Source: a virus. From it: a stretch of DNA of 23,566 nt. Location of the stretch: IMG/VR virus record IMGVR_UViG_3300028073_000181, positions 1 through 23,566 of that record. One strand, given 5' to 3'. Both the position numbers and the translations under genes were made by a program. The stretch's first letter is position 1. Each line of letters opens with the position of its first letter. Shown here piece after piece: positions 3,724 to 16,230 of the stretch. Below the pieces are notes generated by a model, which was given only the letters and a program-made list of their open reading frames with translations, ran no database searches and was not told the origin of the DNA.

Positions 3724-4314
3724 ATGACACTAGTCCCAATGGTAATCGAAACTACATCCAAAGGCGAACGTGCTTTCGATATCTACAGCAGATTACTCAA
3801 AGAGCGTATCATTATGTTAAATGGTCCAGTTGAAGACCATATGGCTAATTTGATTGTTGCTCAAATGTTATTTTTGGAATCAGAAGATCCAAACAAAGAC
3901 ATTAACTTATTCATTAACTCGCCGGGCGGTGTGGTCACAGCAGGTTTGAGTATCTATGATACCATGCAGTTTATTAAATGTGATGTGGCTACCTATGTCA
4001 TGGGTCAGGCCTGTTCAATGGGATCGTTTCTAGCCAATGCAGGTGCAAAGGGCAAACGTTTTATGCTGCCCAATGCTCGTCATATGATCCACCAACCATC
4101 GGGCGGTGCAAGAGGTATGGCATCTGACATTGAGATTTCATACAAAGAGATCATGCACATCAAGAAACGTCTAACAGAACTTTATGTCAAACATAATACC
4201 CAAGGTAAGACCTACGAAGAGTTCGAACGTGATATGGATAGAGATAAATTTATGAGCGCAGAAGAAGCCTTAGAATACGGGCTTATTGATAAAATTATTG
4301 AGAAAAGACCATGA
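3724..4314 (+). CDS. clpP: ATP-dependent Clp protease proteolytic subunit ClpP
   Basis: Serine peptidase that forms a 14-subunit chamber and degrades unfolded substrates delivered by ClpX or ClpA in the cytoplasm. At 196 aa it is full-length for bacterial ClpP. The catalytic triad is intact: S98 (GQACSMGS), H123 (ARHMIHQP) and D172 (ERDMDRDKF), with the same spacing as bacterial ClpP. The oxyanion segment NSPGG (65-69) is present. No Clp ATPase is in the window, so a host partner is implied. It has its own sigma70-type promoter and an AAAGGA site, and its stop overlaps the ATG of the cupin gene. It is closer to cellular ClpP than to the prohead proteases of tailed phages; roles in host-protein turnover or capsid maturation are both inference. 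Confidence 0.95.
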
Positions 4315-4697
4315 ACCAACAACCAACAGGAAAGTTAGACAAGGGCTGGGGCTTTGAATTAGTCTGGGCCAACAACGAAAAATACTGTGGAAAGATCCTA
4401 GTATTTGAGCGTGTGGGCGCAAAGACTAGCCTAGTGTTTCATAGAGATAAACGCAAGAGCTGGTTTGTCAACGAAGGAAAGATTCGTGTAACCTGGACTG
4501 ATGTAGGCACAGGCGAATTGAAACAGGCTGAGCTAGAAGCAGGCAAGACCGCAGACTTTGCAGAAATGAGCCCCCATCAAGTGGAAGCTCTAGAACCCAA
4601 CACTGTGATATTTGAAGTAGGAACTACAGATATTATTGAAGACCGTTTTAGACTTGCACCTGGTGATACGCAAACGAAGCCTTCAGAGCAGAAATAA
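4311..4697 (+). CDS. Cupin-domain protein (128 aa)
   Basis: A small single-domain beta-barrel protein of the type-II mannose-6-phosphate isomerase/cupin kind. Visible cupin features are [18 protein letters not shown] (motif 1 with H44, ending in the usual EG) and the later [10 protein letters not shown] with H88 (motif 2). The N-terminus ([21 protein letters not shown]) matches the usual opening of small sugar-phosphate cupins. Substrate and metal are not evident, and not every canonical metal ligand is present. It is translationally coupled to clpP by an ATGA overlap. Its last 50 bases overlap, tail to tail, the end of the aminolevulinate synthase gene, with no terminator between. Confidence 0.78.
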
Positions 4698-5868
4698 GAT
4701 CTTCAATCATTCCATCATCATGAAACGGAGTAGGTGCAAAACGTAACCGCTCCGTTCCCACATCTACTGTAGGATAGTTGATAGGCTGCACATAGATGTT
4801 GTATTCGTTTAACAGCATATCTGACACTGCCTTACACTTAACAGCATCGCCTACCAGCACAGGAACGATGTGTGTAGTAGAACATTCCATGACTCGAATA
4901 CCGTTGGCATTTAATCTATGCTTGAGTTTTCTAGCACGTTCTTGATGCTTGTCTCGTATTTCATTATGATCTTTAAGATACTTAACTGCGGCTAGAGCAC
5001 CAGCACAGGCCACAGGGCTCATTGATGTGGTGAAGATAAATCCAGCAGCTACTGAACGGATGGCATCAATAACATCTGCATCAGCAGCAATGTAACCGCC
5101 CTGGACGCCAAATGCTTTGCCCAGTGTTCCGTTAATGATATCGATTCTATTTTCTAAACCTAGTTCTTCAACTTTGCCGCCACCGTGTGTGCCGTAAAGT
5201 CCCACAGCATGAACTTCGTCGATGTAAGTTATAGCTTGATATTTGTCTGCTAGATCGCAGATCTGCTTGATAGGACTTACATCACCGTCCATAGAATACA
5301 CTGACTCAAATACTATACACGGAGTATGTCCTGCTAATTTACTGTGAGCTAATTTGTTTTCTAGATCTTCTAGATCATTATGTTCGAATATCTGTTTGGC
5401 TGCTCGACTGTGTTGTATGCCTACGATCAAACTGTTATGGTTTTTACTGTCAGAAATAAACTGTATATTTGGCACGATCTTAGCAAGGCTGATCAGTGTC
5501 CATTCGTTGGCCACATATGCTGAACTAAACAGCAGGGCACGACTTTTGTTATGCAGTATGGCTAGTTCGTGTTCTAGAGCCACATGATAATGACTATGTC
5601 CGCCTATATTTCTAGTTCCGCCAGAACCCGACCCTGTTTGGTCTAGAGCTGTGTGCATGGCATCTAGCACTACTTTGTTCTGCCCCATACCTAGATAATC
5701 GTTTGAGCACCAATTAACTATAGTTTTAATGTTATAGGGCCCATACCATATAGCTTTGGGGAATTCACCACGCTCGCGAACAATGTCGTTGAATACACGA
5801 TATTTGCCGGAATCTTTAAGGTCTTTGATTAATTGTTTGAAAGGTTCTTTGTTGATCATAGTAAACAT
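4648..5868 (-). CDS. hemA: 5-aminolevulinate synthase (C4 pathway)
   Basis: A PLP enzyme that condenses glycine and succinyl-CoA to 5-aminolevulinate, the first step of heme synthesis in alphaproteobacteria and mitochondria. Signature segments occur in order: [12 protein letters not shown] (52-63), [12 protein letters not shown] (79-90), [10 protein letters not shown] (187-196), [10 protein letters not shown] (218-227) and the PLP lysine K251 in [14 protein letters not shown]. The ending [20 protein letters not shown] favours aminolevulinate synthase over the related AONS and KBL enzymes. At ~406 aa it is full-length. Start: ATG at 5868 is proposed; a TTG at 5889 and an ATG at 5859 are in frame, and none has a strong ribosome binding site. 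No promoter of its own was seen. Function of the family is secure; why a phage carries it is inference. Confidence 0.92.
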
Positions 5869-11586: not shown

Positions 11587-12207
11587 ATGCACATTGCTAT
11601 ATTTGTTCATCAACCAGCTTGCTCAGTTGATTCAGTTAATGGCATTATAAAATCTCTTTCTCCTCAACATTCCTTTAAATTATTTTCCAAAGATGAAGTA
11701 GAATCTACATTCTTCGATGATGTAGACTGTATTTGTATTCCCGGAGGCATCGGAGATGCAGATAGATTTGATAGCCTAATGAAATACAATGAAGAGCATG
11801 TTGTTCGATATGTAAAACAAGGAGGCCGCTATCTTGGCATATGCATGGGCGCATATTGGGCAGGACCTGATTACTTTGACCTACTTAATAATGTCAAAGT
11901 AGAACAGTATATTAGACGACCTAAAACAGATACCCATCGCCCACACCCAAAAGCCATGCCTGTGTTATGGAACGGCGAACAGCATAGGATGTATTTCTAC
12001 GACGGTTGTGCATTTGAAGGCACAGGCTTTAAAACAATAGCAACTTATCCTAACATGGATCCTATGGCGATCATTCAAAACCGCATAGGATTAATAGGCT
12101 GTCACCCTGAAAGTAGTCAATACTGGTATAATAAAAAATACCTCGAACCGCATTGGCATCGAGGTATTCATTACAAACTTTTATTAGAGTTTGTTAACTC
12201 TTTCTAA
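11587..12207 (+). CDS. Class I glutamine amidotransferase-like protein (BPL_N type)
   Basis: The N-terminal fold is of the flavodoxin-like amidotransferase class: CICIPGGIGDADRF (oxyanion strand), nucleophile elbow GGRYLGICMGAYWAG with C86, and a late GLIGCHPESSQYW providing H173 and E175, so a Cys-His-Glu triad is present. It resembles the stand-alone domain found at the N-terminus of eukaryotic biotin-protein ligases rather than a classical glutaminase. Length 206 aa fits. Substrate unknown. The ATG at 11587 lacks a clear ribosome binding site and follows the structured element, which may control it. The 3' end overlaps the convergent TerC gene by 14 bases. Confidence 0.8.
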   Translation: MHIAIFVHQPACSVDSVNGIIKSLSPQHSFKLFSKDEVESTFFDDVDCICIPGGIGDADRFDSLMKYNEEHVVRYVKQGGRYLGICMGAYWAGPDYFDLLNNVKVEQYIRRPKTDTHRPHPKAMPVLWNGEQHRMYFYDGCAFEGTGFKTIATYPNMDPMAIIQNRIGLIGCHPESSQYWYNKKYLEPHWHRGIHYKLLLEFVNSF

Positions 12208-12886
12208 ACAAATACTTTTTGTGAAGATGCAATCTTGCCTGATTGTATTGAACAGCAGTAATAACCAATGCAGCTACCCAAGGTAGTATTGCGGCCACCC
12301 AAGGAACTAATCCTGCCCACCATGCAGCCATTAATGGTTCTTTCATAGCCATTAAGAATGCTACAGCAAATAACACAAATGATCCTAGAAATACTGTGTC
12401 CGGCCAACGTTGTAGTATCTTGCTGACCATGGTAGCACCAAACAATATGATTGGCACACTGATCAACAATCCAGCGGCGACTAAAATAAAACTACCATTG
12501 GCGGCTGCGGCAATGCCTAAGGCATTGTCTATGCCCATGACAGCATCAGCGACCACAATAGTTCCAATTGCACCCCAGAAGGTGTCCTTGGCTTCGATGT
12601 TGTGTTCGCCGTGATCAAATACCAGTTTCCAGCCAATCCATATCAGTGCTAGAGCACCTATGATCCTAAGTCCTGGGATCATTAATAGGTATGTTAGTGC
12701 CGCAACTGATACAAATCGTATAGCAATGGCTCCGAACGTTCCCCAGAAGATTGCCTTCTTGCGTAAGTGGTCTGGTAATTTGTTAGCCGCCATTCCGATA
12801 ACAAGAGCGTTATCACCAGCTAATACAATGTCTATCAAAATGATAGCGAGAAATGCCCAAAGGGCTTGGAGTGTAAAGAGTTCCAT
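12194..12886 (-). CDS. TerC/YkoY-family membrane protein, probable Mn2+ exporter
   Basis: An integral membrane protein of about seven helices, 230 aa, in the cytoplasmic membrane. The two TerC signature segments with paired acidic residues inside helices are present: LIDIVLAGDNALVIG (D19, D25) and VADAVMGIDNALGIA (D114, D120). Cellular members with a yybP-ykoY leader export manganese or help metallate exported enzymes. The ATG at 12886 has AAAGGA upstream. Between it and the upstream HAD gene lies a manganese riboswitch (12905-12998), so expression should respond to Mn2+. Older 'tellurite resistance' labels of the family are not well founded. Confidence 0.9.
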   Translation of the reverse strand: MELFTLQALWAFLAIILIDIVLAGDNALVIGMAANKLPDHLRKKAIFWGTFGAIAIRFVSVAALTYLLMIPGLRIIGALALIWIGWKLVFDHGEHNIEAKDTFWGAIGTIVVADAVMGIDNALGIAAAANGSFILVAAGLLISVPIILFGATMVSKILQRWPDTVFLGSFVLFAVAFLMAMKEPLMAAWWAGLVPWVAAILPWVAALVITAVQYNQARLHLHKKYLFRKS

Positions 12887-12904
12887 AATTTTCCTTTAAA
12901 AAGT

Positions 12905-12998
12905 TATGGTCTCACCTCTTTGTCTATATACCGGACGCTGTTTCGCCGTGTTGACGATATATAGAACCCTAACTACAGGTTGGTTACTCCCCGAAAAT
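12905..12998 (-). promoter_or_regulatory. yybP-ykoY manganese riboswitch upstream of TerC
   Basis: The minus-strand leader carries the conserved elements of this class in order: GGGGAGTAACC (12992-12982, loop L1), a first hairpin AACC...GGTT, then a helix TCTATATA (12966-12959)/TATATAGA (12930-12923) enclosing CGTCAACACGGC (loop L3 core), and finally GGTGAGACC (12916-12908, 3' side of L1). The ribosome binding site follows about 15 bases later, so translational control is likely. The outer stem P1 is weaker than usual. The downstream gene is TerC, the classic partner of this riboswitch, which strongly supports the call. Confidence 0.85.
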
Positions 12999-13000
12999 AT

Positions 13001-13585
13001 TTAGCCTACGATTCTCTCGTAGATTTCTTTCCAGTTCTTTACTCTAGGAATTTCCGGATGTTCAAAATCCATATTGTGTCCATGTTCCATAAGTAAACTT
13101 TTTAGACCTCGATCTTGACCAGCTACAGCATTGGTAATTTTATCTTCAATCCACCAATAGCCTTTGTCTTGATACTTGTCCAATACTTCGTCTTTATCAG
13201 CACCTGTTTCTAGTATGATAAATTTGGTAAATGCAGTTTCTCCAAACAACTTACGCAGATTCATTTTGCGTAGTTCCTGTGCATTCTCATCTGAACTCAT
13301 AGATGTGATACAATGAAACACATAACCGTGTTCTTCGTGTAGCCGTTTAACATAGAACATGGCATCACGCAAGGGCGGTAAGAAACCCATATGTGCCGAT
13401 TCATTAAACATCTTTATAAGTTTTTTGGCCTGCTCTTTTTCAATACCATAGCGTTTGCCAATATCGTATTTGAATTGGTGATCCTCGGTTTTTTGGAAAC
13501 CATGTTGTTCCATCCAAACTGAGAAAGCGTATTCCCAATCTAGCAGAACTCCGTCTGCGTCTGTTAAAATGATTTTATTTTTCAT
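13001..13585 (-). CDS. HAD-superfamily phosphatase, 5'(3')-deoxyribonucleotidase-like (194 aa)
   Basis: A haloacid-dehalogenase phosphatase, probably acting on nucleotides or other small phosphates in the cytoplasm. Motif I is LTDADGVLLDW (residues 7-17, nucleophile D8 and general acid D10), motif II is CITSMS, and motif IV is WWIEDK with acidic Glu-Asp. This arrangement fits the NT5C-like group often seen in phages. The start is ATG at 13585; a GTG 15 bases upstream lies inside the -10 region. It is driven by a perfect sigma70 promoter whose predicted start falls at about the ATG, so the message may be leaderless. It is followed by the riboswitch and TerC in the same direction. Confidence 0.85.
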   Translation of the reverse strand: MKNKIILTDADGVLLDWEYAFSVWMEQHGFQKTEDHQFKYDIGKRYGIEKEQAKKLIKMFNESAHMGFLPPLRDAMFYVKRLHEEHGYVFHCITSMSSDENAQELRKMNLRKLFGETAFTKFIILETGADKDEVLDKYQDKGYWWIEDKITNAVAGQDRGLKSLLMEHGHNMDFEHPEIPRVKNWKEIYERIVG

Positions 13586-13635: not shown

Positions 13636-13643
13636 CATAAATA
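13636..13643 (+). promoter_or_regulatory. T4-type late promoter box CATAAATA
   Basis: Exact NATAAATA motif 24 bases before the GTG at 13668. Predicted start near 13649, followed by the strong AAAGGAG site (13656-13662). It would make the isocitrate lyase operon a late-transcribed unit. Confidence 0.72.
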
Positions 13644-13667: not shown

Positions 13668-14876
13668 GTGAAAAAACGCAATTACACACAAGACACAGTC
13701 CGCAAGTTACAAGGCTCATTACAAATTGAGCACACTTTAGCCAAACGTGGTGCTACCAAACTACGTGAACTTCTAGCTACAGAACCATACGTTAATACGC
13801 TAGGCGCATACAGTGGACAACAAGCAGTCCAACATGCCAAAGCAGGACTCAAAGCAATTTACCTATCGGGTTGGCAAGTGGCCGCAGCCGCTAACACCGC
13901 AGGTCAAACATATCCTGATCAAAGTTTATATCCAGTAAACTCTGTTCCTACAATCGTTAAACAGATCAACAATGCTTTCCGTCGTGCTGATCAAATCGAA
14001 TACTCAGAAGGTAATGTAACTACAGATTACTTCCTACCAATCGTTGCTGATGCTGAAGCAGGCTTTGGTGGTGCGTTAAACGCATACGAATTGATGATGG
14101 CCATGATCGAAGCAGGTGCAGCCGCAGTTCACTTTGAGGATCAATTATCAAGTGAAAAGAAATGCGGTCACTTGGGCGGTAAGGTTCTAATTCCTACTAG
14201 CCAAGCGATTCGTAACCTACAGGCTGCGAGATTGGCCGCAGATGTAGCAGGTGTTGATACAGTTATTCTAGCAAGAACAGATGCAGAATCAGCAACGTTG
14301 ATTACCAGCAACCATGACCCGTTAGACAAGGATTTTATTATCGATGAACGCACTGAAGAAGGTTTTTACAAATTTAAAAATGGGCTTGATGCATGTATTA
14401 GCCGAGGTCTTGCTTATGCCCCTTACGCTGATCTCCTATGGTTCGAAACTAGCACACCTGATATTGCACAGGCTAAGAAATTCGCCGATGCTATACATGC
14501 TGAGTTTCCAGACCAAATGTTGGCTTATAATTGCAGCCCTAGTTTTAATTGGCGTAAGTTTTTATCTGTAGACGAGTGCGAAACATTCCAGCGCGAGCTA
14601 GGTGAATTAGGATATAAGTTCCAATTCATTACACTAGCAGGATTCCACAGTGTTAACCTAGCAACATTTGAATTAGCAGAAGCATACAAACAACGTGGTA
14701 TGGCTGGCTACAGTGAAATGCAGGAACGTGAATTTGCCGCCCAGGCTCGTGGCTTCACAACCGTTAAACATCAACGTGAAGTTGGCGTTGGTTACTTTGA
14801 TCTAATCAGTGAAGCAGTTGGTGCTACCAGCACAGTGGCCAACAAGAGTTCTACAGAAGCGGAGCAATTTCACTAA
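13668..14876 (+). CDS. aceA: Isocitrate lyase
   Basis: Splits isocitrate to glyoxylate and succinate, the entry of the glyoxylate bypass; a cytoplasmic homotetramer. The catalytic signature is intact: [15 protein letters not shown] with nucleophile C166, plus [11 protein letters not shown] (66-76), ADAEAGFGG (127-135), HFEDQL (155-160), YNCSPSFNW and the usual C-terminal TEAEQF. At 402 aa it is ~30 residues shorter than E. coli AceA; most of the loss is at the N-terminus, with a few residues missing before [13 protein letters not shown]. The start is GTG at 13668 with AAAGGAG six bases upstream. Similarity to cellular enzymes is high along its whole length, suggesting capture from a host. Its stop overlaps the ATG of the aldolase gene (TAATG). 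Confidence 0.96.
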
Positions 14877-15529
14877 TGTTAGAAACCATTTGCGATATTC
14901 TAGTAGAAGCATATAAGCGCAATTGGATTACGAGTAGAGATGGCAACATCTCTATTCGTCATCACGATAGAGATCATTTCTATGTTACTCCTAGTGGTGT
15001 GCGCAAACAGACAATGCAACCTGATCAGTTTAAAAAGATTAAAATAAACAAATGTATCAATAGCGGTGCAGGCACAGCAGAAATGTTGTATAGTTGGGAG
15101 GAAATGCCTTACAGCGATATCAGTATAGGATTGAAGCCCACAGGTGAAATGCCTCTGCACTTTGGTCTACAACGTGAAATATACCAAGATGAAGTTCGTG
15201 TAGTTACTCATATCCATCCTACCTATATCGTTGCTGCCATGCATGCCGGAATCGAACTAAGTGAATTGGCCAAAGATTTTCCAGAACTTAGTCGTTATAC
15301 TAGAGTAGCACCCAATGTAGGTGATGTTCCGCCGATATCACAAGAATTAGGCGATCAATGTCACGAAAAGTTGGGTTTAAATCCAAATACTGGAGAGATT
15401 AAGTATGATATAGTTGGAATTAAAGGACATGGGGTCGTGGCTATAGATTCAACGCCATGGCGGTCTTTTGAACATATAGAGAGATTAGAACATATTTGCA
15501 AGATAGTTCTAAGCTCAGGGAATTATTAA
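14876..15529 (+). CDS. Class II aldolase/adducin-family protein (217 aa)
   Basis: A zinc-dependent aldolase or dehydratase of the fuculose-phosphate aldolase/methylthioribulose-phosphate dehydratase fold. Visible elements: RDGNISIR (21-28, phosphate loop), YVTPSGVRK (36-44), PTGEMPLH with E91, THIHPT with H112 and H114, and GIKGHGVVAI with H185, giving the three-His metal site and the catalytic Glu. The exact substrate (sugar phosphate or methylthioribulose phosphate) cannot be read from the sequence. It is translationally coupled on both sides by TAATG junctions, between isocitrate lyase and desaturase. Confidence 0.88.
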   Translation: MLETICDILVEAYKRNWITSRDGNISIRHHDRDHFYVTPSGVRKQTMQPDQFKKIKINKCINSGAGTAEMLYSWEEMPYSDISIGLKPTGEMPLHFGLQREIYQDEVRVVTHIHPTYIVAAMHAGIELSELAKDFPELSRYTRVAPNVGDVPPISQELGDQCHEKLGLNPNTGEIKYDIVGIKGHGVVAIDSTPWRSFEHIERLEHICKIVLSSGNY

Positions 15530-16230
15530 TGATTGAATTTATATACACCTTGGTAATGGTTCAAATTACCATTGCTTGTGTCACGCTCTATTTGCACAGA
15601 TCGCAGACACATAAAGCAGTAGCTTTCCATCCGGTAGTTAATCATATAATGCGTTTTTGGTTATGGTTGACTACAGGTATGGTTACTAAACAATGGGTAG
15701 CAATACATCGCAAGCACCATCAGGCCAGCGACACTGACTCTGATCCTCACAGTCCGCAAATTTATGGAATTAAGAAAGTGTTATTCGGTGGCGCATTATT
15801 GTATCACGAAGCCAGCAAAGATACAGCCATGGTCGAAAAACTAGGAGTTGGAACTCCTAATGATTGGTTAGAGCGTAACATTTACTCCGCACATAGTCGC
15901 TTAGGGATTCTATTGATGTTGGTCATAGACCTTGTTCTTTTTGGACCTGTAGGACTGTTAGTGTGGGGTATCCAAATGATATGGATACCGTTCTGGGCCG
16001 CCGGAGTAGTAAACGGATTAGCTCATTGGTGGGGATATCGTAATACAGATACCAAAGACACTAGTCGCAATTTATGGCCCTGGGCATTGTGGATTGGCGG
16101 GGAAGAATTGCACAACAATCATCACGCAGATGGTGCCAATGCTAGATTTAGTCAGAAATGGTATGAGTTTGATATAGGATGGATGTATATCAACATACTT
16201 AGATTTTTTAAGTTAGCAACAGTTAGATAA
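15529..16230 (+). CDS. Fatty-acid desaturase, delta-9 acyl-CoA/lipid type (233 aa)
   Basis: A membrane di-iron enzyme that introduces a double bond into fatty acyl chains. All three histidine boxes are present: HRSQTH (23-28), HRKHH (60-64) and HNNHH (195-199), with an extra H166 typical of the SCD-like class. Hydrophobic segments lie at about 2-21, 40-58 and 124-165. The start is ATG at 15529, joined to the aldolase stop as TAATG; a longer frame from 15496 has no support. Electron donors would come from the host. It is the last gene of the three-gene operon, followed by a terminator at 16235. Confidence 0.92.
   Translation: MIEFIYTLVMVQITIACVTLYLHRSQTHKAVAFHPVVNHIMRFWLWLTTGMVTKQWVAIHRKHHQASDTDSDPHSPQIYGIKKVLFGGALLYHEASKDTAMVEKLGVGTPNDWLERNIYSAHSRLGILLMLVIDLVLFGPVGLLVWGIQMIWIPFWAAGVVNGLAHWWGYRNTDTKDTSRNLWPWALWIGGEELHNNHHADGANARFSQKWYEFDIGWMYINILRFFKLATVR

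Follow-up and report, generated by a model that had tools for sequence, protein, structure and literature searches.

The leader of the terC gene in the viral DNA analysed here (record IMGVR_UViG_3300028073_000181; all 23,566 nucleotides are referred to as the window) is almost certainly a yybP-ykoY-class element carried by a phage, and Mn2+ is very probably the ligand of its RNA. The reading as a whole, considered likely, is that of a yybP-ykoY Mn2+ riboswitch of T4-like, sometimes jumbo-sized phages, whose transcript would start at a late promoter and which would exert translational ON control of TerC. The features of the unit are as follows.

13001 to 13585, minus strand: upstream HAD-like nucleotidase gene (phrog_420, 2.5e-36; PF06941, 22.1 bits, just below the cut-off)
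12998 to 13005, minus strand: putative T4-type late promoter box GCTAAATA, with TAAATA at 13003-12998 and a predicted transcription start at 12992
12985 to 12992, minus strand: 5' strand of L1, GGGGAGUA, shared by every phage leader, in part because the search patterns required it; G12992-G12991 form the 5' strand of P1.1
12914 to 12984, minus strand: P1.2, A12984-U12914 and C12983-G12915; both pairs change from AC/GU to GU/AC in 3 sequences and are never broken
12965 to 12981, minus strand: P2 hairpin, AACC 12981-12978 with GGUU 12968-12965; 98.5% of cells paired, 4 of 7 pairs changed on both sides
12924 to 12964, minus strand: P3.1, 12964-12956 with 12932-12924, 9 bp including a U-G; 97.8% of cells paired, 7 of 9 pairs changed on both sides
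12948 to 12955, minus strand: L3, GUCAACAC, placed by alignment to the class; CGUCA is invariant in A1 and was required by the search pattern
12934 to 12947, minus strand: P3.2 hairpin, GGCG AAACAG CGUC; 99.2% of cells paired (3 pairs counted)
12917 to 12923, minus strand: linker ACAAAGA in place of the P4 helix (subtype A), from leader comparison; P4 is kept in subtypes B and C
12908 to 12916, minus strand: 3' strand of L1, GGUGAGACC, from motif and pairing; C12909-C12908 supply the 3' strand of P1.1 and, alternatively, the first two bases of the start-codon hairpin
12883 to 12909, minus strand: start-codon hairpin, CCAUAA 12909-12904 with UUAUGG 12888-12883, from folding and an arm-exchange test
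12194 to 12886, minus strand: terC, YjbE-type TerC family membrane protein of 230 aa (PF03741, E=1.7e-39; phrog_7180; TIGR03717)

Core motifs and covariation of the terC leader

The first-pass annotation had proposed three core motifs in order on the minus strand, in a leader between a HAD gene and TerC. All three were located (GGGGAGTA at 12992-12985, CGTCAACACGG at 12956-12946 and GGTGAGACC at 12916-12908), with the HAD-like nucleotidase gene upstream and terC downstream, and the ordered pattern, present a single time in the window, appeared in none of 100 dinucleotide shuffles. The L1, L3 and GAGACC/AAGACC letters of the yybP-ykoY class were found in order, and the leader from 12992 to 12883 contained every tested core element of these Mn2+ riboswitches except the P4 helix. 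The 8-bp helix described around the second motif corresponded to CUAUAUAU/GUAUAUAG, with seven Watson-Crick pairs and a U-G, and was one C-G longer (12964-12956 with 12932-12924). The unit is longer than the proposed span of 12905-12998, extending from the putative late promoter at 13005-12998 to the end of the hairpin at 12883. The identity of the downstream gene was supported by PF03741 and by NCBIfam TIGR03717 'R_switched_YjbE' (190 bits, cut-off 134.8), both of which were above their curated cut-offs.

The single leader was less conclusive. Its fold was unexceptional (z = -1.26), and a gathering scan with Rfam gave no match above threshold. With a relaxed threshold RF00080 aligned from end to end at 18.3 bits (gathering score 45), with E-values of 0.0031 for 301 bases against all of Rfam and 5.7e-5 for the contig against RF00080 only. 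The above-threshold hit proposed earlier as a check was therefore formally missed. The z value and the low score are what favours a chance resemblance with no structured RNA behind it, and because of them the case would have stayed open without relatives.

Relatives were collected by a TerC protein search (80 viral loci) and a motif search (40 stretches), which combined to 48 distinct leaders. The extraction pattern demanded GGGGAGTA, CGTCA and AGAC(C/T), which in part explains why these letters do not vary; it placed no requirement on the helices. Three subtypes were distinguished, A without P4 and B and C with it, A being the main subtype. Across 41 leaders of subtype A, 98.6% of the predicted pair cells were paired (89.0 in shuffles and at most 42.1 in slid controls), 15 of 23 pairs changed on both sides, and such changes occupied 99 cells compared with 23 in shuffles. 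P1.2, P2, P3.1 and P3.2 are backed by these paired changes, and P2 reaches up to 7 bp in relatives. The outer switch helix P1.1 occurred only as GG:CC with one G-U variant; its two pairs hardly vary, so covariation is uninformative there. P4, which gives way to the 7-nt linker in subtype A, is variable in the yybP-ykoY class and was not treated as defining.

A covariance model, R1, was built from the 41 subtype A leaders. Outside its training set it found phage subtypes B and C (46-61 bits) and the terC leaders of Polynucleobacter (49-56 bits). The motif order, the covariation in phage leaders and the homologous leaders before bacterial terC genes together contradict a chance resemblance, which is barely conceivable. 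The earlier assignment of a yybP-ykoY-class element before a TerC-family gene was thus borne out by the core letters and the covariation in relatives.

The missed gathering score was not taken as a refutation because other leaders of the class miss it too. A Lactococcus-type yybP-ykoY element (L265) scored 38.7 bits with RF00080, Polynucleobacter terC leaders 26-28 bits, and those of Bacilli and Burkholderiales 26-37 bits, all under 45, while a UPF0016 leader reached 104.7 bits. The failure is a limit of the RF00080 model, the gathering score not being a defining feature of the class, and the cut-off was judged too strict: on L265, L138, L147, L123 and L125 it was seen to leave out Lactococcus-, Bacilli- and Polynucleobacter-type members. 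Default surveys consequently under-count the class, and Rfam-based annotation of viral genomes misses its phage members.

A12952 in L3 corresponds, by alignment to the class, to the Mn2+-discriminating A48/A41 of solved structures, and the role of A48 in this discrimination has been described (PMC6754395). Response to another signal in the phage, such as another divalent metal or alkaline pH, would have a precedent in alx, which responds to alkaline pH besides Mn2+ (PMC9603457). The L1 letters and CGUCA, which includes the discriminator A, nevertheless match the Mn2+ class, and the gene partners are of the TerC family throughout, which makes such a signal very unlikely.

Probable late promoter and start-codon hairpin

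The box GCTAAATA directly before the aptamer is, with high probability, a T4-type late promoter. T4 late boxes span -13 to -6, and Aeh1 provides a known variant with gC at -13/-12 (PMC2988020). The box found here is TATAAATA-like with its last A at -6, and it stands 5 nt before 12992 and overlaps the stop codon (13003-13001) of the upstream HAD-like gene. From its position, +1 would fall on the first G of the aptamer, and we infer transcription to start at 12992. All 48 leaders had a TAAATA ending 4-8 nt ahead of GGGGAGTA (at 5 nt in 25 of them), and neither of the searches that gave these leaders had asked for it. Where enough flank was available (47 leaders), TAAATA was invariant while the bases on both sides varied, and the upstream 300 nt fell into 12 clusters without detectable similarity. 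Within the window, 15 of 17 TAAATA sites lay within 130 nt upstream of an ORF on the same strand.

The earlier reading of a T4-like phage agreed with the gene content of related contigs of 215-357 kb, on which a gp23 homologue was present and, on three, weak homologues of a gp55-type late sigma factor; the window, itself a fragment, has none. No late box was found directly before gp23 in three large contigs. The weakness of the outer stem had also been noted earlier, and P1.1 is indeed only 2 bp. With TAAATA directly before the aptamer the mRNA should begin at the aptamer, which would account for so short a stem; P1.1 is weak in known members of the class as well (PMC6754395).

The start-codon hairpin encloses the Shine-Dalgarno sequence AAAGG (12897-12893) and the AUG (12886-12884). 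CC 12909-12908 closes P1.1 and also opens the CCAUAA arm, and these two uses are mutually exclusive, from which Mn2+ is predicted to turn translation on. A hairpin of at least 5 bp was present in 40 of 48 leaders and missing in four distinct ones (L046, L062, L066 and L072). In a single leader it was not significant against shuffles (p ~0.2 at 6 bp and ~0.02 at 9 bp). In a set of 19 distinct arm pairs, however, own arms beat exchanged arms in 5000 of 5000 exchanges (mean 5.4 vs 4.5, a difference inflated by shared ancestry), with CCAUUUUAA/UUAAAAUGG and CUGUAAU/AUUAUGG as examples of co-varying arms. A translational ON switch is accordingly modelled as the probable function of the leader, in keeping with published work in which Mn2+ stabilises P1.1 (PMC6754395) and turns on mntP translation (PMC9603457).

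A transcription terminator as expression platform was rejected for the window, where the start codon lies within the downstream hairpin and there is no U-run after it. This bears on a switch of opposite sign or acting at another level, that is, on transcription or OFF with Mn2+. Many class members do act on transcription (PMC6754395), and the hairpin argument is one of pairing alone; on the other side, no terminator-like U-run lies between the aptamer and the AUG, the start codon sits in the alternative hairpin, and the targets are all TerC-family genes, expected to be Mn2+-induced. We consider such a switch improbable.

The 2-bp P1.1 weighs against translational ON control, since coupling must then rely on stacking of L1. 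It would also suit a yybP-ykoY-derived RNA that no longer switches and that, after transfer from a host, became a constitutive structured leader serving mRNA stability or the start-codon hairpin. The loss of the aptamer in some phages (L037-L039) points the same way. Against this, the letters of the binding loops L1 and L3 stay constant despite the divergence of helices and flanks, only a minority of leaders in the clade concerned lack the aptamer, and the CC common to P1.1 and the hairpin is retained. A non-switching leader is therefore unlikely.

In the proposed mechanism of Mn2+-dependent ON control, the phage late sigma factor would direct RNA polymerase to start at about 12992, so that the transcript opens with the aptamer GGGGAGUA. 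At high cytosolic Mn2+, L1 and L3 would dock around Mg2+ and Mn2+ and the tiny P1.1 (GG:CC) would be stabilised, keeping CC off the start codon so that TerC is translated. At low Mn2+, CC would join the CCAUAA/UUAUGG hairpin over the Shine-Dalgarno sequence and AUG, and TerC would be off. The TerC protein, presumed to export Mn2+ in the infected cell, would expel it from the cell late in infection or pass it to envelope proteins.

Subtypes, spread and origin

A later scan that required TAAATA and another that did not brought the total to 70 distinct phage leaders, all before TerC-family genes: TerC-I (54), Alx-like (11) and TerC-II (5), groups that have Pfam support. In L219, L237, L241, L271, L274, L280, L285, L287 and L102, and in L231, L236, L224, L227 and L290, the late-promoter and aptamer unit stands before longer, Alx-like TerC genes (312-318 aa) and before a second TerC group carrying GGENALVI.

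Subtype B leaders (L021, L051, L057 and L059), ~60-130 nt upstream of terC at 4001, carry a second hairpin after the first, which covers the terC Shine-Dalgarno sequence. When the CC arm was blocked in silico, the freed AUAUUAUGG paired with a downstream CCAU-type segment and the second hairpin opened in 3 of 4, on which an RNA relay between the two hairpins is predicted. A short ORF (17-42 aa) begins in the first hairpin of subtype B leaders. Evenly balanced in our judgement is a wider proposal of an AND-gate cassette. Here the late start would coincide with the first base of the aptamer, TerC would be made only late and at high Mn2+, the unit would be mobile among T4-like phages and serve three TerC-family groups, and subtype B would relay to its second Shine-Dalgarno hairpin.

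Three leaders upstream of 4001 (L037, L038 and L039) are decayed: L1 and most of P3 are lost, and CTATAGACAAAACTGTGATACCATAAC and the start-codon region are kept. At least 15 phage TerC genes have no such leader. The switch thus appears to be dispensable in some phages. The TerC proteins behind one subtype C leader (L046) and one subtype B leader (L020) fall among subtype A proteins in the tree, which suggests that leaders were exchanged independently of the gene, although support is weak for many branches in that part of the tree. Other viral contigs carry canonical riboswitches, before mntP (L082, L101) and UPF0016 (L118, L302) and in L301, that have no late promoter and appear to come from hosts.

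Phage TerC-I and Polynucleobacter TerC formed one clade (SH-aLRT 100), separate from a lineage formed by the TerC of isolated phages such as Otagovirus, whose genes lie mostly in tellurite-resistance clusters. The nearest bacterial TerC proteins were those of Polynucleobacter, with 62-65% identity, the leader too was closest to this genus, and most terC leaders of the nearest bacteria had a complete yybP-ykoY core. The simplest reading of these sequences would be acquisition from a Polynucleobacter-like host. Two leader subtypes had no DNA similarity to isolated phages, and R1 had no match in six sampled isolated-phage TerC loci; hence no isolated phage with the promoter-aptamer-terC unit was found.

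The window also encodes 5-aminolevulinate synthase (4648-5868, minus strand; TIGR01821, 574 bits, cut-off 339), an auxiliary metabolic gene for haem-precursor synthesis on a phage contig, and a complete ClpP protease (3724-4314, plus strand; PF00574, 1.5e-82). A late-type TAAATA box at 13638 precedes a row of plus-strand genes (13668-16230) whose products are an isocitrate lyase (688 bits with NF011645, exceeding the cut-off), an aldolase of class II and a fatty acid desaturase of the DesA type. In L060 and L064 terC directly follows an aldolase gene, without riboswitch. A changed genetic code for the L060 and L063 TerC was rejected, as the in-frame stops were ordinary gene ends.

Comparison with known systems

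As the sensor is kept in many distinct leaders while helices and flanks diverge, free Mn2+ seems important to these phages late in infection. Whether infection raises Mn2+, and why a phage would export it, thereby become testable questions. Candidate benefits of late TerC would be relief of Mn2+ overload, shielding of phage enzymes from Mn2+, and metal loading of envelope proteins, as described for MeeF/MeeY (PMC12096827). The compact P4-less aptamer is offered for structural work.

Phage riboswitches have been described as rare, with glutamine and other ones known (PMC9004378). In the literature searched, which was covered in part so that priority is not proven, no report was found of the Mn2+ class in a phage or of an Mn2+ riboswitch directly behind a phage late promoter. 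The glutamine riboswitch of methylophage Melnitz and the cyanophage psbA element (PMC9004378) are, as here, riboswitches in T4-like phages; their class and ligand differ, and no Mn2+ class is mentioned in that paper. The mntP and alx riboswitches of E. coli share with the proposed phage switch the published Mn2+ ON control of translation of an Mn2+ exporter, but are bacterial, with longer leaders and a different type of L3 and P3. The Polynucleobacter terC leaders (L122-L128, L141) are found by R1, and in most of them GACC stands 23-33 nt ahead of the start codon, as in the phage; they differ from subtype A in having P4, and from the phage leaders in having a TATAGAAT-like promoter element further upstream and no late box. 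With the RF00080 members of solved structure (Lactococcus lactis, Xanthomonas oryzae) the phage leader shares L1 GGGGAGUA...GAGACC, L3 CGUCA, P1.2, P2, P3.1, P3.2 and TerC-family targets. It is unlike them in being phage-encoded, in a 5' end apparently set by a late promoter, in a P1.1 cut to GG:CC, in the absence of P4 in subtype A and in an Rfam score far below threshold. The aptamer class was already known; its occurrence in phages, its fusion to a probable late promoter and its form without P4 set this variant apart.
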